Below, one piece after another: positions 45,593-54,903 of a stretch of DNA of 64,000 nt. Positions within the stretch are counted from its first letter, which is position 1; each line of letters opens with the position of its first letter. Both the position numbers and the translations under genes were made by a program. The notes below the pieces were generated by a model, which was not told the origin of the DNA, made no database searches, and saw only the letters and a list, made by a program, of their open reading frames with translations. The stretch is from contig NZ_CP041242.1 of assembly GCF_006547045.1 (NCBI RefSeq), positions 1,002,001-1,066,000 on the forward strand. The letters run 5' to 3'. The DNA is from Lysobacter alkalisoli (GTDB lineage Bacteria; Pseudomonadota; Gammaproteobacteria; Xanthomonadales; Xanthomonadaceae).

Positions 45593-46741
45593 ATGCGATT
45601 CCTCCGCTTTCTTTCCGTCCCCGTCCTGACCCTGTCGTCGCTGCTGGCCGCGCCAGCCGTCGCGCAGGATGCCGCGGCTCCGTCGCTTCCGCTGCCCGTT
45701 GACGAACTTCACGCGGATGAACTTCACGCGGATGAACTTCCCGTGGACGACACGGTCCGTGACATCGATGCCGTCGTCGTCAGCGGCGTGCTGCCCGGCC
45801 CGGGGCTGTGGAAAGTCAGCAATGGCGGGCACGTGATGTGGGTGCTGGGCACGGTGTCGCCACTGCCGAGGAAGATGGAGTGGGAAGCGCGCGAGGTCGG
45901 GCAGGTGATGGCCCGGGCTCAGGAACTGATGTGGTGGCCGAGCGTCAGCTTCAGCGCCGACGTCGGTTTCTTCCGCGGTCTGGCGCTGGCGCCGAAGGTG
46001 ATCGGCATGCGCAAGAACCCGGATGGCGCCCGGCTGGAGGACGTGGTGCCGGCGGAGGACTACGCCCGCTGGGCCGTGCTCAAGCGGAAGTACGTCGGCC
46101 GCAGCAACCGGATCGAAGGCTGGCAGCCGATCTATGCCGCGCTCGAACTGTACGGAGAGGCGATCGACGATACGGGGCTGCGCCAGAGTGGCGTGATCGA
46201 ACCCGTCCTCGAAAAACTGGCCCGGACGCACGGCGTCACCCAGAGCAGGCCGGTCATCAAGGTGGTGATCGAAGACCCGAAGCAGGCGATAGCCGAGCTG
46301 CGCAAGACCCGGTTCGACGATCTGGACTGCTTCCGCAAGACCCTGGACAAGCTGGAGGGCGAGCTGGGCATCATGCGCGAGCGCGCCAATGCCTGGGCCG
46401 TGGGCGATCTTGAAGAACTGGCCACGTTGCCGGATACCAACCACTACCAGGCGTGCCTGGATGCGGTGCAGGCCACCGAAGTCATCAGCCGCCGCAGCGG
46501 CGGCGACCTGCTGGCGCGGATGCGCGAGGAATGGCTCGGCGAGGCCGAACGCGCGCTGTCGAACAACGATGTGACCCTGGCCCTGCTATCGCTCCGCCAG
46601 TTGCAGGGCGAGGACGGTCTGGTCGCCGAACTGCGCGCGCGCGGCTACACCGTCGAGGCACCCGGCGAGTACGAGGCCGACCCGATCGCGGACGAGGCCG
46701 CAGCCGGGGGCTACGAGGCGGGTGCGGCAAGCGCCGACTGA
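45593..46741 (+). CDS. TraB/GumN family exported protein
   Basis: A 382-residue protein with a signal peptide cleaved near AVAQ (residue ~25), then a short acidic repeat region and a TraB/GumN domain from ~70. Family marks are GPGLWKVSNGGHVMWVLGT, SPLPRKMEWEAREV and ANAWAVGDLEEL. GumN was first noted beside the xanthan genes but its function is unknown; related TraB proteins are proposed metalloproteases, though I see no confident HEXXH-type site. The last 31 bp overlap the 3' end of the convergent lipid operon. Confidence 0.85.
   Translation: MRFLRFLSVPVLTLSSLLAAPAVAQDAAAPSLPLPVDELHADELHADELPVDDTVRDIDAVVVSGVLPGPGLWKVSNGGHVMWVLGTVSPLPRKMEWEAREVGQVMARAQELMWWPSVSFSADVGFFRGLALAPKVIGMRKNPDGARLEDVVPAEDYARWAVLKRKYVGRSNRIEGWQPIYAALELYGEAIDDTGLRQSGVIEPVLEKLARTHGVTQSRPVIKVVIEDPKQAIAELRKTRFDDLDCFRKTLDKLEGELGIMRERANAWAVGDLEELATLPDTNHYQACLDAVQATEVISRRSGGDLLARMREEWLGEAERALSNNDVTLALLSLRQLQGEDGLVAELRARGYTVEAPGEYEADPIADEAAAGGYEAGAASAD
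45701..45745. repeat. 15-bp tandem repeat in the GumN-like gene
   Basis: Three units (45701, 45716, 45731) of GAYGAACTTCACGCG encode DELHA, DELHA and DELPV just after the signal peptide. Confidence 0.85.
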
Positions 46742-47637
46742 TCCTGTCGGGCACGCATCCGCATCAGGAAGTCGTGCAGCATCTCGGTCGACAACCCGTG
46801 CAGGGTCAGGCGGAAGCCGGCGCGCAGGGTCGACATCGGCACCAGCGGGTGGCGGTTGTTGAGCAGCACCAGGTGGTCGTGGGCGTCGAGCAGGGTGGCC
46901 GCGTACAGGCCGATGGTCTCGTCGAGCTGCAATGAGTTGGTCGCGCGCCAGAAGTCGCTGTCGGTCAGCAGCAACTGGTAGATCGGGGTGAACAGCTCGA
47001 TCGAGCTCTGCAGGTCGAGGAAGTTGCGCCGCTGGCGTGGCATGTCTTCCAGCCGCAATGGCGGTTGCCGGATCATCGACAGGTTGGGACGCTCGACGTA
47101 CTCCAGCTGCCGCCCTTCGTCCTGCAGTGTCTTGTTGAGGCGGATGATGAAGTTGTAGAGGTTGAGGTCGTGGATGAGGAACAGTTCCTCGCGCACATCC
47201 GCGATCTTTTCCGGGCGCAGCGGATTGGTGGCGACCGCGACCGGCGCGTTGCGGGCGATGAATTCGAGGATCTGCGAGCCGAGGTGGAAGTGGCGCAGGA
47301 TCAGCCAGTTCGCCTCCGGGCGGATGAAGTTCTCCATGCCCCAGGCCAGCAGCCGGTGCAGCGCGCGCGAGAATGCCAGCTTGCGCGGGGTGAATACCTT
47401 GAACACCTGGATCAGCACGATCATCGTGCGTGCGAACGGGCGGATGAAGGGCAACAGGTACTGGCGCGAGCGCGAGCTGGAGTCGGCCAGCCAGGCATGC
47501 TTGACCGCGTCGTCGATCGGCGTGCTGCGGTCCAGGTACATCGCCAGCCATGGGTTCGGGTCGCGCGGATCATGGGCCTGGTCGAGGAAGTCGGGCTCGC
47601 GCCTCATCCCGGCGTGCTTGATGTCGGCATGCTTCAT
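46711..47637 (-). CDS. Conserved protein of unknown function, lipid operon
   Basis: A 308-residue protein without a signal peptide. I do not recognise a characterised domain (possibly a DUF6999-type family). The middle is helical with one moderately hydrophobic stretch (MIVLIQVFKVF), conserved-looking motifs WGMENFIRPEANWLILRHFH (key HFH) and VREELFLIHDLNLYNFIIRL. The several His, Glu and Asp residues could bind metal, but this is speculative. Its start overlaps the ketosynthase-diiron fusion stop by 4 nt, so it belongs to that operon as the last gene. The 3' end overlaps the convergent GumN-like gene by 31 bp. Confidence 0.75.
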   Translation of the reverse strand: MKHADIKHAGMRREPDFLDQAHDPRDPNPWLAMYLDRSTPIDDAVKHAWLADSSSRSRQYLLPFIRPFARTMIVLIQVFKVFTPRKLAFSRALHRLLAWGMENFIRPEANWLILRHFHLGSQILEFIARNAPVAVATNPLRPEKIADVREELFLIHDLNLYNFIIRLNKTLQDEGRQLEYVERPNLSMIRQPPLRLEDMPRQRRNFLDLQSSIELFTPIYQLLLTDSDFWRATNSLQLDETIGLYAATLLDAHDHLVLLNNRHPLVPMSTLRAGFRLTLHGLSTEMLHDFLMRMRARQDQSALAAPAS

Positions 47638-49538
47638 CTCGGTGTGTCCTGTGCGATGGCCAGGTGTTCGAACTGCATCAGGTACAGCCCGGCGGTGCGG
47701 CGCGCGGTGTCGATGATGGCCCGGGCCCCGCTGCCACTGGCGTCATTGTCCAGCACGATCTCCACCGCGCGCAGCCAGCGGGCCAGGTGGTGCGCGTCGT
47801 TCTCGCCATGGTATTCGAGGAAGCGGAACGCGTCCGGCGGCAGGTCGAGCGCGGCCTTCATCAGTGGCAGCAGCGCCGGGATGATGCGCTGGCCGGTGCC
47901 CTCGATGATGTAGATCGCGCCGAGCAGGCCGAGCGGGTTGGGCGTCGCGGCCAGCGCATGCAGGTAGCTGTTGAGCGCCTCGCCGCCCGGATTGCGGCGC
48001 AGCGCGTCGATGTCGGCGATATCGCCGCCGGCCTTGCGGTAGTCGTCGAACAGGATCATGTAATCGTCCTGCTCGTCACCGGCATGGGTTTCGATCAGGG
48101 TGGCCAGCGCCTCGTACGGCGGGCGCACCGAGGCCGCACCCTCGCGCATCCACTTGCTGCCCTCGCGCACCTGCGGGATCCAGTCGCGCATCCAGGCGAC
48201 GTAGTCGGGCGCGGTGAAGCGCCCCTCGCGCAGCTTGCGGATCATCGGCGTGCGCCATGCGCGCGAGCGGTAGTCGTGCCAGATCGTCGCCAGTTCGCCG
48301 AGCAGGTGGCGCAGCGCGGCGGGCGCATCGCCCGGATCATGGGGCGGGGCGATGCCATCGTCCGCCACGGCCGGTGTTACCGGCAATGGCGTGGTCGCGG
48401 TCCTGGCCGGTGCGTCGGCGGCCTCGACCTCGATCATCGCGAAGGCGACGGTGAAGCGCCCCGACTCGGGGATGAAGCAGAGGATGCGCTGGCCCGGCTG
48501 CAGTGCGTGCGTGCGCAGGAACTCGTCGAGCATGATGAAGATCGAGGCGGCGCCGGTGTTGCCGCGGATGGTGAGGTTGCTGTACCAGCGTTCGCGCGGG
48601 ATCGACAGGCCGGCCTTGGCCATCAGCTCATCGACGACCGGGGCGAAACGCTCGGACGAATAGTGGCAGAGGAAATGATCGACCGTGGCCGGATCGATCC
48701 AGCCGCCGTGGCAGAGCTTGGCGTACTCATGCACGCCGACGTCGAACAGGTGCGGCAGCAGGCGGATGTCCTGGCGCAGGAACAATGCGCCGTCCGCCTC
48801 GGCAGCCTGCCAGGCGTCGTAATCGAGGTGCGAGCGGCTGCGGTCCGGAGTCAGGCCGAGCTGCATGCAGACCGGGTAGTCGCCGGCGAACGAGCGCTGG
48901 TGGATGAAGCGCAGGCGCAGGCGGATGCCGCCCTGCGTCGGTGCGGTCGAGGTCAGCTGCAGCGCGCCGGCACCGTCGGACAGCATCCAGCGCAGGAAGT
49001 GGGCATCGAAGTCGGCGTCGTAGTCCTTCGCTGCGTAGCGCGAGCGCTTGAACAGCCGCGACGGCATCTCGGCGGCGGCGACCAGGGCGCGTTCGTGCGA
49101 GCCCAGTTCGACCGCAGCGGCCGCGCTTTCCCACGCCGCCACGCCGGAAGCGCAGATGCCGTGGTTGGAGAACACCTGCATCGGCGGTGCCGCCAGTTCG
49201 CCATGGACCATGCTGGCGAAGCCGGGCATCAGCGCATCGCCGCCGGAACTGCCGCAGGCGAGCAGGCCTATCGCATCGAGCGGAGTGCGGGTCGTGCCGA
49301 GGCAGTCGTGGATCGCGGCCGCGGCCATTGCCGCGCAGGAATGCACGGTGTGGCCGTCGCGGTCGATCGCGTAGTGCCGGGTGCGGATGCCGTTCTCGCC
49401 CAGGATGCGGCGCTTGATCCGGCCCGAGACCCGGTTCAGCGGCGCGATGTAGGCATCCATCGCCTCGTTGTCGATGGCCGGGCCGGGCAGGAAGCGACCG
49501 CTGCCGTGGATCCAGGTGCGATTGAAAACGGTAGGCAT
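47634..49538 (-). CDS. Ketosynthase III - haem-oxygenase-like diiron domain fusion
   Basis: A 634-residue fusion. Residues 1-~372 form a FabH/OleA-type ketosynthase with an intact triad: C129 (GICASG), H292 (CHYSS) and N327 (RGNTGAAS). After a Pro/Ala linker (~375-405), residues ~408-630 have a haem-oxygenase-like helical domain (Haem_oxygenas_2/TenA-like). Its ligand pattern is that of diiron oxidases: E476 or E483, H485, E546 (YIIEGTGQ) and H577-x3-D581-x2-H584. Known relatives include UndA (alkene-forming) and SznF (N-oxygenating). A condensation product could be oxidised while bound, but product and chemistry are unknown. The start ATG overlaps the desaturase stop by 1 nt; the frame upstream of it is antisense noise. 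Confidence 0.85.
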   Translation of the reverse strand: MPTVFNRTWIHGSGRFLPGPAIDNEAMDAYIAPLNRVSGRIKRRILGENGIRTRHYAIDRDGHTVHSCAAMAAAAIHDCLGTTRTPLDAIGLLACGSSGGDALMPGFASMVHGELAAPPMQVFSNHGICASGVAAWESAAAAVELGSHERALVAAAEMPSRLFKRSRYAAKDYDADFDAHFLRWMLSDGAGALQLTSTAPTQGGIRLRLRFIHQRSFAGDYPVCMQLGLTPDRSRSHLDYDAWQAAEADGALFLRQDIRLLPHLFDVGVHEYAKLCHGGWIDPATVDHFLCHYSSERFAPVVDELMAKAGLSIPRERWYSNLTIRGNTGAASIFIMLDEFLRTHALQPGQRILCFIPESGRFTVAFAMIEVEAADAPARTATTPLPVTPAVADDGIAPPHDPGDAPAALRHLLGELATIWHDYRSRAWRTPMIRKLREGRFTAPDYVAWMRDWIPQVREGSKWMREGAASVRPPYEALATLIETHAGDEQDDYMILFDDYRKAGGDIADIDALRRNPGGEALNSYLHALAATPNPLGLLGAIYIIEGTGQRIIPALLPLMKAALDLPPDAFRFLEYHGENDAHHLARWLRAVEIVLDNDASGSGARAIIDTARRTAGLYLMQFEHLAIAQDTPR

Positions 49539-50455
49539 CAACAACGGTCCTTGTGCGGATTTTCGGGGTTGACGGTAGCAGGCCGCAGCGATCGCGAGCG
49601 CAGGGCGGGTGCGAACGGCCCGAGCACGAACACCCGCAACACGTAGCGCGCGAAGCCGCGTTCGAGCAGTCGAGGATCGACGCGCTCGCGATAGCGCCGG
49701 TGCAGGCGTGGCAGCTGCGACCAGTGCGCGCGGCCGTGCTCGTGATGGGCGGTGTGCAGGCCGATGTTGAACAGCAGCGGGTTGAGCCAGCCCTCGAAGT
49801 TGCGGGCATAGCCATAGCGGCTGCCGTCGTCGGCATGGGCGTGCTGAAGGTAGTTGGCCGCCAGCAGCCAGTGCAGGCCGAACAGCTGCGGCACGATCAC
49901 CAGTCCCAGCGCCTTGCCGGGATCGAGTGCGAGCAGGAGTGCCCAGCTGCCCAGCCACAGCGCGTACTGCGCGATGTACCAGCGCCATACCGCGGGCCGG
50001 TGCCGGCGCAGGCGTCGCAGCCAGGTCAGCACCAGCGGGTAGACGGCGATCGCGGCCTGGAGCGGATGCAGCGCCCAGCCGGGCAGGTGGTTGTGGTCGC
50101 CAAAGCGCCAGGTGCGGGCCGCATCCTCCGGACCGTGGCGGAAACGGTGGTGGTTGAGGCGATGGGCCGGGTGCAGCACGCAGGTCGGATGTCCCTGCAA
50201 CAGGGTGATGGCGAGGTCGGTGGCCCGGTTGGGATGGCGCCGCGTCCACATCGGCAGGTGGGCGTGATTGTGGTGGATCACGCTGATCCCGACAGCAAGG
50301 AACAGGCTGGCGGCGTACGCCAGCGGGTGGAAGCCGTGGACCCATTGCCAGGCCATCAGCATCGGTTGTGCGAGCAGGTAGGCCAGGCTCTGCAGGTCGC
50401 TGCGATCGCGCAGCGGGCCGAGCGGATCGAGCGGGCTGATCGGAAGCCGGCTCAC
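49538..50455 (-). CDS. Membrane fatty acid desaturase
   Basis: A 305-residue integral membrane diiron desaturase with three histidine boxes: HHNHAH, HRLNHHRFRH and HTAHHEH. Hydrophobic stretches lie around ~20-60 and ~130-190. Such enzymes desaturate (or hydroxylate) acyl chains in the membrane. It starts at GTG, overlapping the preceding hydroxylase stop by 4 nt (GTGA), and is followed by the ketosynthase fusion. Position and substrate specificity cannot be predicted. Confidence 0.88.
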   Translation of the reverse strand: MSRLPISPLDPLGPLRDRSDLQSLAYLLAQPMLMAWQWVHGFHPLAYAASLFLAVGISVIHHNHAHLPMWTRRHPNRATDLAITLLQGHPTCVLHPAHRLNHHRFRHGPEDAARTWRFGDHNHLPGWALHPLQAAIAVYPLVLTWLRRLRRHRPAVWRWYIAQYALWLGSWALLLALDPGKALGLVIVPQLFGLHWLLAANYLQHAHADDGSRYGYARNFEGWLNPLLFNIGLHTAHHEHGRAHWSQLPRLHRRYRERVDPRLLERGFARYVLRVFVLGPFAPALRSRSLRPATVNPENPHKDRC

Positions 50456-51228
50456 CGCGATACCTCCGTGGTGCCATGCCCGGTATGCCGGGCGATGTTG
50501 CGGTCGGCCGCGTCGAGCGGGATCACGCTGCCGAACATCCGGTCGAACACCTCCAGCAGAAACCCGTAATTGCCGTGGTAGCAGGCATGGTGCAGGTGAT
50601 GGCGGCGGCTGGCGCCGAGCCAGCCGCGCGCGGGTGCGTCGCGGCTGGCCTCGTAGTTGGAGTGGCCGAGGTTGTTGAGCGCGATGCTGAGCACCGGCAG
50701 GGTCATCAGCGCGGCGAAGCTGAAATCGTGCAGCAGCATCGGGATCAATGGCACGCTGCCGAGCATCGCCGCCTCGACCGGATGGAAGGCGTAGGTCGAC
50801 CACGGCGTCGGCACGTGCGATCGATGATGCATGGCGTGGAAGCGCCGCATCGGCCGGGTGTGCAGCAGGCGATGGTTGAGGTAGAAGTGCAGTTCGTTCC
50901 AGAGAAACAGCACGCCGATCTCGATCGCGACCTGCCACCACGGCGGATCCACCGCCAGCCCGGCCCAGCCCAGTCGCAGCAGCCCCCACGGCACCACCAG
51001 GCCGATGCCGAAGATCAGGATCGACGAAGCCGAGGCCCTGAGCTCGCGGCGCAACTGCTCGCCTGTGACCGGGCGTGGATCGAGCCGGCGCCCGTGGCCG
51101 ATGTGCGGCAGCACGACTCGTGACAGCAGTACCGAGAGGAGGCCGGTGCCCGCATAGAGCAGGGTGAAGAAGGCCACGCCGACCGCCATCACGGTCAGGG
51201 CGTTCTGCGCGATGAACCACTCACCCAT
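50452..51228 (-). CDS. Sterol desaturase/fatty acid hydroxylase family protein
   Basis: A 258-residue membrane protein of the ERG3/fatty acid hydroxylase superfamily. It has about four membrane helices and the diiron histidine clusters HFYLNHRLLH, HAMHHRSH and HHLHHACYHGNYG. Bacterial members hydroxylate or desaturate lipids, carotenoids or ether lipids. It is the first gene of the four-gene lipid operon, with a strong AAGGAG ribosome site 9 bp before the ATG. It lies 62 bp downstream of dxs on the same strand, so dxs read-through is possible. Confidence 0.88.
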   Translation of the reverse strand: MGEWFIAQNALTVMAVGVAFFTLLYAGTGLLSVLLSRVVLPHIGHGRRLDPRPVTGEQLRRELRASASSILIFGIGLVVPWGLLRLGWAGLAVDPPWWQVAIEIGVLFLWNELHFYLNHRLLHTRPMRRFHAMHHRSHVPTPWSTYAFHPVEAAMLGSVPLIPMLLHDFSFAALMTLPVLSIALNNLGHSNYEASRDAPARGWLGASRRHHLHHACYHGNYGFLLEVFDRMFGSVIPLDAADRNIARHTGHGTTEVSR

Positions 51229-53415: not shown

Positions 53416-53985
53416 CTAGCGACCGCGCAGGCGGCCGAACAGACCTGTCCTGGCGGCCTCCGGCTCCGGCGCCGACTCGCTGTACGGCTCGGCAAAGCCG
53501 GTGGCCAGGTTGGCGTTGATGAAGTCGGCCACGTCGGCCTCGGGCACGCCGCTGGCGACGACGATCTCGGCCAGCGTTGCGGGCCCCTTCATCATCACCG
53601 TCGAAATGCGGAAGTGCTTGGGGTACTCGCGCTCGGTCTGCGGCCATTTGAGCATGTGGAAGCGCGCATCCGGGGCATGGTCGCCGACGATGCGGCCCTT
53701 GCCGGCGAGCAGGCCTGCCAGCCAGATCAGCCTGGTCAGGGGCTGCGGTTCGATCTTGCCGGCTTCGGCGGCCCAGCCGGCTATGTCGACAGGCTTGAAA
53801 TCGGCCGCGGTCAGCGCGCCATCGAACAGAGGTGCCAGCGGTTTGAGCGCGGCGCCTGCCAGGTACTGGCGGGAGTCGGCATCGATCAGGACGCGCTGGC
53901 CGCCACGTTCCAGCCGGACGCGGCCGGCCAGCCGGCCCTCGGCCAGCCAGTGGGCAAGGGTGCTGGTGGACGTCGGCGCAACCAT
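53416..53985 (-). CDS. C-terminal part of split pseudo-receiver protein (winged-helix-like)
   Basis: A 189-residue open frame. The last ~70 residues (HFRISTVMMKGPATLAEIVVASGVPEADVADFINANLATGF, key PATLAEIVVASGV) look like a winged-helix domain. The reading begins at an internal ATG with no ribosome site and overlaps the upstream frame by 100 nt. One extra C in the CCCC run just before that ATG would join it in frame to the 53886-54659 reading. I therefore think this is the 3' half of one gene broken by a 1-base deletion or sequencing error. Its function is unknown. Confidence 0.6.
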   Translation of the reverse strand: MVAPTSTSTLAHWLAEGRLAGRVRLERGGQRVLIDADSRQYLAGAALKPLAPLFDGALTAADFKPVDIAGWAAEAGKIEPQPLTRLIWLAGLLAGKGRIVGDHAPDARFHMLKWPQTEREYPKHFRISTVMMKGPATLAEIVVASGVPEADVADFINANLATGFAEPYSESAPEPEAARTGLFGRLRGR

Positions 53986-54659
53986 GGGGAAGCAGTTGCC
54001 GCAGTCCCATTTGAGGGCTGGCGCAACGGAGCGGCGGGAGGCGGGGCAACGGTTGCCGTCGCCAGCGATGGCCGGGGCGGGTTGGCCACGGCGGCGGCCT
54101 CTGCAACGACCGGTGCCGGCACATGTATCGGCTCGGGAGCGGCCATGGGCTGCGGTGTCGGGGCAGGCGAACGCGGTGCAGGGGAAGGCGGTGCAGGGGA
54201 AGGCGGTGCAGGGGAAGGCGGTGCAGGGGAAGGCGGTGCAGGGGAAGGCGGTGCAGGGGAAGGCGGTGCAGGGGAAGCCGGCGTGGCGGCGGCTGTCAGT
54301 GTCCCGGTTTCCGGTCCGGTGCTCGTTCCGGGTGCGGTACCGAGAGTCACCCCGGCGTTCGCGGCCAGTTCGACCAGCAGTGCCGAGACGCCATCGACAT
54401 CGAACGGGCGCTCGAGGCGGAAATCGGTCTGGGTACGGGCCGCGGTGGTCAGGCCGGTGACCTGTTTGCGGGCCGCGTGCAGGCGCAACCAGCTCATCGG
54501 ACCGTACATGCTGTCCATGTCGACGATCACGTAGGCGGCTTCCGTCTCCGACACCAGGTGCCAGGGCTTGCCGAGACGGGCGTTGGCAGCATTGAAGGCG
54601 GCAGTCAGTGCCGATTCGGTGTCCGGGTCCATTCCGGTCAGGCCCAAGGTCAGAGGCAT
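53886..54659 (-). CDS. N-terminal part of split protein: pseudo-receiver domain and Pro-rich linker
   Basis: A 257-residue open frame from MPLTLGLTGMDPDTE. Residues 1-~110 resemble a degenerate response-regulator receiver: VIVDMDSMYGPMSWLRL at the beta3 aspartate position, VTGLTTAA at beta4, and LERPFD in place of the usual K-P-F. A ~100-residue linker includes seven PSPAP repeats. After that the frame runs into an Arg/Trp-rich tail ending at 53886, which looks out of frame. The natural continuation is the overlapping 53416-53985 reading. There are no membrane segments. It is upstream of dxs and on the same strand. Confidence 0.6.
   Translation of the reverse strand: MPLTLGLTGMDPDTESALTAAFNAANARLGKPWHLVSETEAAYVIVDMDSMYGPMSWLRLHAARKQVTGLTTAARTQTDFRLERPFDVDGVSALLVELAANAGVTLGTAPGTSTGPETGTLTAAATPASPAPPSPAPPSPAPPSPAPPSPAPPSPAPPSPAPRSPAPTPQPMAAPEPIHVPAPVVAEAAAVANPPRPSLATATVAPPPAAPLRQPSNGTAATASPWLRRRPPAPLPTGWPRAGWPAASGWNVAASAS
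54175..54279. repeat. 15-bp tandem repeat, seven units
   Basis: Seven near-identical copies of GGTGCAGGGGAAGGC (54175 to 54279) encode PSPAP units on the minus strand. They form the linker of the split pseudo-receiver gene. Confidence 0.95.
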
Positions 54660-54903
54660 GGTGCAGTCCGTACGCGTAATTTCAGATCGTAATCGAATTT
54701 TGCCAATCCTGAATGCTTCGTCAACGAGCGGGCGCCGCTTTCCGGCATCCCATCGCAACACCGCTGCCGGCAGGTGACGCGCTGGGGCAGGAAAACGCCC
54801 GCCAGGGTCAAGATCGCGGGTTTCGATGCTGCGTTGCGGCGGTGGATTGCGCAGGATCCGGCTCCCGGTTCCAGGCCGGGCATCCGGGCCGGTCGGTACG
54901 AAG

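Follow-up and report, generated by a model that had tools for sequence, protein, structure and literature searches.

A 64,000-nucleotide stretch of Lysobacter alkalisoli DNA (NCBI RefSeq assembly GCF_006547045.1, contig NZ_CP041242.1, positions 1,002,001 to 1,066,000; the whole stretch is called the window) carries a four-gene operon, A to D, which stands up as a conserved biosynthetic unit that seems not to have been described before. Its third gene, C, encodes a ketosynthase (KS) fused to a haem-oxygenase-like (HO) domain, and its fourth, D, belongs to the Pfam family DUF6999. The probable task of the set is to link two fatty-acid units in a ring-shaped lipid and then to oxidise this lipid with an iron enzyme fused to the linking one. 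The reading we favour, though somewhat short of an even chance, is that the operon is a variant of the DarB-type resorcinol-lipid pathway. A diiron oxidase and DUF6999 would replace DarA, with A and B contributing later decoration. This reading builds on computed features of the set: its gene content and conservation, a fusion that most simply had a single origin, the ligand pattern of the oxidase and the absence of a DarA-like gene.

The genes overlap tightly (Table 1), as claimed in a first-pass annotation made from the sequence of the window. A and B share 4 nucleotides (GTGA, 50452–50455), B and C share one (TGATG, at 49538), and C and D share 4 (ATGA, 47634–47637). Pfam matches C at ACP_syn_III_C (36.2 bits, cut-off 26.6) and at Haem_oxygenas_2 (41 bits, cut-off 28.9). 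Genes A and B are members of FA_hydroxylase and FA_desaturase, respectively, with scores above the Pfam cut-offs and conserved histidine boxes. H114, H119, H123, H131, H134, H135, H210, H213 and H214 of A are invariant (89 aligned rows), and the box histidines of B are kept in 97–100% of rows (78 aligned rows). A PDB search with A returned no match, and with B a single match at E 0.53.

Table 1. Genes of the operon and predicted domains of C, in window coordinates
Feature	Position	Strand	Description
Gene A	50452..51228	(-)	258 residues; FA_hydroxylase (sterol-desaturase superfamily) membrane enzyme; PF04116, 83.2 bits, cut-off 31
Gene B	49538..50455	(-)	305 residues, GTG start; FA_desaturase, PF00487, 83 bits, cut-off 29.7
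Gene C	47634..49538	(-)	634 residues; predicted fused ketosynthase and haem-oxygenase-like diiron-oxidase-type protein
C residues 1-372	48423..49538	(-)	Predicted StlD/DarB-like KS domain, triad C129/H292/N327
C residues 407-624	47667..48320	(-)	Predicted all-helical HO domain; PF14518
Gene D	46711..47637	(-)	308 residues, all-alpha; DUF6999, PF22523, 424.9 bits, cut-off 27

The ketosynthase of gene C

The KS of C had been annotated as FabH/OleA-like. As placed by family model, sequence, predicted fold and tree, it is StlD/DarB-like instead. The best NCBIfam model for C is StlD/DarB (NF005293), matched at 325 bits, which is under the curated cut-off of 450. The DarB model comes second at 265 bits (cut-off 550), and the best FabH-type model reaches 70 bits. 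On NF005293, relatives of the new kind score 322 (L051), 325 (L153) and 398 bits (L054), and classical DarB (four proteins of other genomes) reaches 583–602. No KS in the host genome (3,857,091 bases) exceeds the StlD/DarB cut-off, and C is the top match there (327 bits).

Structure comparisons point the same way. StlD (PDB 5gk0) is the first solved structure by sequence (1.2e-60). An AlphaFold2 model of whole C (mean predicted local distance difference test score, pLDDT, 89.3; predicted template-modelling score, pTM, 0.68) retrieved ketosynthases only among the 50 fold matches listed. StlD ranks first, at E 7.5e-31 and 35% identity, and the other chains listed (AbyA1, FabH, PqsD, BioZ and OleA among them) follow at E 4.2e-18 or weaker with 18–23% identity (18–22% for FabH and OleA). 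H292 aligns to the histidine that is mutated in 5gk2, an H302A structure of StlD. The triad residues C129, H292 and N327, correctly located in the first-pass annotation along with H577, D581 and H584 of the HO domain, are identical in 93/93 aligned fusion rows, as is E157. This alignment comprises the window and 92 relatives, with several organisms present twice, rows cut at the first stop and L146 left out. Where L146 was used elsewhere, its KS stretch was 1379–2512.

A tree of 41 ketosynthases unites the 20 fused forms in one clade (SH-like approximate likelihood-ratio test, SH-aLRT, 99), which two split forms of the Pseudoalteromonas type join (95). The outgroup, four other ketosynthases, is set off from all DarB-like rows (100). 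The tree comes from a quick search that does not settle the deeper order inside the DarB-like group; L156, L163 and L164 sit on long branches. On this topology, the joining of KS and HO would most simply be a single event. A tree of the HO domains (28 KS-linked rows, also a quick search) likewise has a branch (89) with the fused forms all on one side, and a further branch (100) separates every KS-linked domain from eight other HO-domain matches. L153 and L154 fall inside its fused group, not at the base, a difference from the KS tree. L054 was dropped from the HO tree, having fewer than 120 residues after cutting at the stop, and L150, L156 and L162 have long branches.

Three Streptomyces plasmids also encode a DarB-like KS, 38% identical to C (L163:9992-11128). 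At the plasmid locus viewed (L163), it stands alongside acyl carrier proteins, an FAD monooxygenase and a P450.

The haem-oxygenase-like domain and DUF6999

The C-terminal part of C is modelled by AlphaFold2 as a helical bundle. A profile of 16 HO domains matches PDB 3dde, an uncharacterised haem-oxygenase-like protein, at E 3.3e-12. The other four matches listed are weak (E at least 0.2), and none is a described diiron oxidase. In the fusion alignment, H485, E489, D492, E546, H577, D581 and H584 are invariant (93/93 rows) and E459 is kept in 92/93. E546, H577, D581 and H584 are also present in all 16 rows of the HO alignment, split forms included. At position 459 the split forms carry either Glu or Asp; they keep the other residues named here.

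Haem-oxygenase-like diiron oxidases typically pair an H-x3-D/E-x2-H core helix with a Glu on another helix, and their first core helix carries a Glu a few residues before a His, at a spacing that varies. The domain fits the former pattern, with its H-x3-D-x2-H on one helix and E546 on the preceding helix. A fusion to an HO domain with such a motif had been proposed, and both the Haem_oxygenas_2 match and the invariance of the motif bear it out. The candidate metal ligands are H485, E546, H577, D581 and H584, together with either E459 or E489. The excerpted text of a 2026 review (PMC13108848) describes a set of three histidines and three carboxylates on three core helices in these oxidases; against that set, two core helices of the C domain fit and the first does not fit cleanly. 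For comparison, excerpts of a paper on DtpC (PMC13232832) name E143 and H153 as the ligand pair on its first core helix. A diiron site in C is therefore likely, though not proven.

Gene D, listed earlier as a protein of unknown function, is a full-length member of DUF6999. The family has a name, and the absence of a known function stands. Its model is all-helical (mean pLDDT 89.5, pTM 0.87). A PDB sequence search with D gave no match at E ≤ 10, and a fold search gave none at E ≤ 0.001 (best E 1.0, TM-scores ≤ 0.22 among the 50 matches listed). Residues invariant across 40 DUF6999 members include R115, H116, H156, D157, D239, R276, H280 and E285. The model distributes these invariant residues over four helices, and DUF6999 might therefore have a metal or cofactor site. 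A second haem-oxygenase-like domain was considered for DUF6999 and rejected, a profile comparison giving a probability of 0.3 on hhalign's percent scale. A full-text search of open-licence papers found DUF6999 mentioned in none.

A weak 15-base repeat (75% matches) spans the start of gene D at 47604–47642 and appears in the protein as KHADIKHAG. In several relatives the start of D lies about 10 residues further on.

Occurrence of the set and of DarA

DUF6999 is rare. It was found in 9/398 sampled genomes of the phylum, 6/250 of the order, 6/289 of another class in the phylum (apparently Alphaproteobacteria) and 2/197 of another order. With each later search repeating one earlier find, the four amount to 20 distinct genomes. 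Among 14 control genomes, only Caulobacter vibrioides gave a match. In 20/20 of the DUF6999 genomes, a KS and an HO sequence adjoin DUF6999, either fused or as separate genes.

Gene order is conserved as well. With D as bait, contigs of other genomes were scanned and the best 80 of 399 stretches fetched, a sample that favours close relatives. A, B, KS, HO and D follow in order on one strand at 66 of these 80 loci. Of the remainder, 8 are without B, one is without A and one is without both. Two are short contigs with HO and D only, and two, from Variovorax, have A and D only. We rejected the Variovorax loci as exceptions without C, for a full C with B adjoining lies elsewhere in those genomes. 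These two genomes thus hold A and D at one site and B and C at another, retaining all four genes despite a broken operon. Because the triad and all candidate ligands but E459 are identical in 93/93 fusion rows and the gene order is kept at 66/80 loci, the set is more than a chance association. Within the family its distribution is patchy, a full-length KS-HO fusion being present in 8/60 near relatives: the host genome, six genus mates (one in two contig pieces) and G018.

In other lineages KS, HO and DUF6999 are three adjacent genes. This is the arrangement in L051 and L146–L150, which appear to be alphaproteobacteria, in L156, and in L054 and L162 (the Pseudoalteromonas type). No A or B lies next to any of these split trios, and L153 and L154, from the host's order, carry fused C and D with no A or B on contigs shorter than 9 kb; in neither group was the rest of the genome searched. 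Since several organisms are shared by the two locus collections, their counts are not added. The first-pass annotation had treated A and B as part of the core; with A, B or both missing in part of the loci and KS-HO-DUF6999 constant, we infer that this trio is the core, to which A and B were added later.

Lysobacter, Achromobacter, Bordetella and Variovorax all have the set, as do a Pseudoalteromonas and, apparently, alphaproteobacteria. Plasmid spread was rejected, as no DNA match occurred in the plasmid collection; by protein search, one plasmid record (Pseudoalteromonas) carries the KS-HO-DUF6999 trio.

C was also used as query over 398 genomes of the phylum, scoring at most three candidates per genome. 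Of the 20 genomes matched at E ≤ 1e-25, 9 are the DUF6999 genomes, and each of these has both a KS and an HO sequence. In the other 11 the DarB-like KS comes with no listed HO match, and 0/11 have DUF6999. This comparison takes the 398-genome samples of the DUF6999 search and the C search as one draw, their size and handles agreeing. The classical DarB loci fetched were 5 of the 11 and that of the second KS of G433. A protein of 305–334 residues adjoins classical DarB and fits darA of the arcuflavin cluster; in the table of PMC3949708 for that cluster, darA is the DAR-aromatase and darB the DAR-cyclase. The same table holds genes for an acyl carrier protein, a BtrH-like peptidase and ABC transporters, and Pfam finds a BtrH domain in L168. 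Neither Pfam nor NCBIfam has a model that matches the DarA-like protein. Its gene lies directly beside DarB in 12/12 genomes with classical DarB, including G433, the source of the query. In genomes with the new set only, 0/8 gave a DarA-like match (E ≤ 1e-5; the host genome and seven others). An ordinary DarAB cluster was thus rejected, the host genome having no DarA-like gene.

Flanking genes vary by lineage. In the window the gene 5' of A ends 62 nucleotides before it, and its translation was read by eye as 1-deoxyxylulose-5-phosphate synthase (dxs). The Lysobacter loci are flanked by dxs, those of Achromobacter and Bordetella by a DHDPS-type gene. Conserved flanking genes were rejected as functional clues, the flanks changing with lineage. 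At L052:10467-11335 gene B is matched by two fragments, at 37% and 41% identity, that lie in different reading frames, and C and D match throughout; this B may be broken or misread. A protein of 185–188 residues precedes the split trio in L162:8448-9005 and L054:10441-11007, the two copies being 64% identical. The L054 copy has no Pfam match. In both of these Pseudoalteromonas-type loci the protein perhaps replaces A or B. Directly 3' of the split trio in L051 is a fusion of MFS, acyltransferase and AMP-binding parts (L051:4197-7598), which is not beside the trio in L146–L150.

Two further repeats lie in the window. Positions 45704–45740 hold 2.5 exact copies of a 15-base unit (DELHA repeated), near the start of a convergent open reading frame (45593–46741, plus strand). 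At 54159–54281 another 15-base unit is repeated 8.2 times (96% matches); it lies in frame inside the open reading frame 53886–54761 (minus strand), where it encodes a Pro/Ala/Ser linker. The length of this linker may differ among strains.

Proposed pathway, alternatives and known systems

DarB-type enzymes make cyclohexanedione and resorcinol lipids from 3-ketoacyl and 2-enoyl substrates. Fuchs et al. 2013 reportedly describe DarB-type condensation and cyclisation, as their title suggests. By analogy with this family, the KS of C would condense a 3-ketoacyl with a 2-enoyl thioester, both of them fatty-acid-synthase intermediates, and close the joined acyls into a 2,5-dialkyl-1,3-cyclohexanedione (step 1). 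Condensation of acyl groups had been expected as the first step, and the KS family supports it. The fused diiron oxidase would then oxidise the ring with O2, doing the work of DarA; the simplest outcome would be aromatisation, giving a dialkylresorcinol or a further oxidised form (step 2). DUF6999 would be an obligate partner in this; it could donate electrons, act as a scaffold or be a second enzyme (step 3). In beta- and gammaproteobacteria, A would hydroxylate and B desaturate the alkyl chains or the ring, in the membrane (step 4). Oxidative cleavage or decarboxylation had been suggested previously. An StlD/DarB-type KS and the pattern of DarA occurrence point instead to oxidation of a ring product. 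The first-pass annotation thus had the right pieces and the wrong KS branch, and its interpretation is partly supported.

Several points weigh against this pathway. The product of the KS may differ from that of DarB, for C (325 bits) and the split forms (L051, 322; L054, 398) score under the NF005293 cut-off. H485 has no conserved acid shortly before it, and the candidate carboxylates are E459, on the preceding helix, or E489, which follows H485. The HO tree departs from the KS tree in that L162, from Pseudoalteromonas, groups with other split forms and not with the fused ones. The DarA-like protein is named by position and size alone, and its absence could reflect lineage and not replacement; G433 carries both classical DarB and the new set. 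The operon also has no acyl carrier protein or transporter gene, unlike the arcuflavin cluster as tabulated in PMC3949708.

The strongest alternative, which we consider clearly less likely, keeps the same ring-forming KS and assigns HO and DUF6999 another oxidation, such as ring hydroxylation to a hydroquinone or quinone lipid, or ring cleavage. The products would then not be dialkylresorcinols. It draws on the constant presence beside HO of an extra partner, DUF6999, which DarA-type genomes are without, and on the varied chemistry on fatty and amino acids that excerpts of PMC13108848 stress for these oxidases.

An OleA/FabH-like condensation followed by UndA-like oxidative decarboxylation or cleavage, giving ketones or alkenes, is improbable. 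OleA, FabH and the KS of C share the thiolase fold, and UndA is described in the same excerpts as a haem-oxygenase-like diiron fatty-acid decarboxylase. StlD is nonetheless far ahead in the fold search, where OleA chains reach 18–21% identity and a best E of 6.8e-16, and this pathway was rejected as first choice on that search; the family models and the KS tree also put C with DarB. Marginally less probable again is modification of membrane phospholipids, in which the KS would transfer or elongate the acyl chains of a lipid, for oxidation by A, B and the diiron domain. A phospholipase-D-domain gene lies upstream in many Variovorax loci and L053, and in L051 D is followed by the transporter-acyltransferase-AMP-ligase fusion. 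Against this, the flanks change between dxs and the DHDPS-type gene with lineage, and the L051 neighbours are not found in L146–L150. A mainly protective HO domain that limits peroxide, as proposed for Acinetobacter DtpC, is very improbable. In its favour, the predicted diiron site of DtpC is needed for desiccation survival (excerpts of PMC13232832, 2026, where a term search returned no mention of a ketosynthase). Against it, DtpC is co-transcribed with katE, and the HO domain of C is constantly linked to a KS with an intact triad.

The DarB-type pathway with a diiron oxidase in place of DarA would suggest that nature has two separate solutions to the oxidation step in making resorcinol lipids, DarA and a diiron enzyme. 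It offers a concrete, testable role for the uncharacterised family DUF6999 and for an orphan branch of haem-oxygenase-like diiron oxidases. As the set recurs across many genera, one product could account for a lipid common to them. A slightly more tentative extension is that the core specifies a widespread undescribed lipid class. It would combine a DarB-type KS, an HO diiron oxidase acting on the ring product, and DUF6999 as a new all-helical fold, maybe with its own active site formed by the invariant residues (His, Asp, Glu and Arg) spread over four helices. A KS ring product is a substrate type not named in the excerpted text of PMC13108848. Among the open-licence full-text matches listed (topics: ketosynthase, StlD, DarB, stilbene and dialkylresorcinol; haem-oxygenase-like diiron; fatty acid hydroxylase), none describes the set, which agrees with the earlier remark that no named pathway contains it.

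StlD/DarB ketosynthases act in cyclohexanedione/dialkylresorcinol and stilbene biosynthesis. The predicted KS of C resembles them in its best family model, nearest solved structure, Cys-His-Asn triad and grouping with DarB in the tree. It differs in scoring under the NCBI curated cut-off, in the fused or adjacent HO, and in the presence of DUF6999 with no DarA-like gene. DarAB dialkylresorcinol clusters that include aryl polyenes, such as that for arcuflavin in Azoarcus, likewise place a DarB-type KS next to an oxidative partner; the darA, BtrH-like, acyl carrier protein and ABC transporter genes tabulated for it in PMC3949708 have no counterpart in the new operon. With the haem-oxygenase-like dimetal oxidases and oxygenases (UndA, SznF, CADD, BesC and others), C shares PF14518, an all-helical domain, the H-x3-D-x2-H helix and a Glu on the helix before. 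Unlike them, its HO domain is fused to a KS, has its candidate acidic ligand near H485 out of the usual place, and has the uncharacterised 3dde as nearest solved relative by sequence. Gene D, finally, is a full-length DUF6999 protein (PF22523), a family tied here to the KS-HO pair in every one of the 20 genomes found by search.

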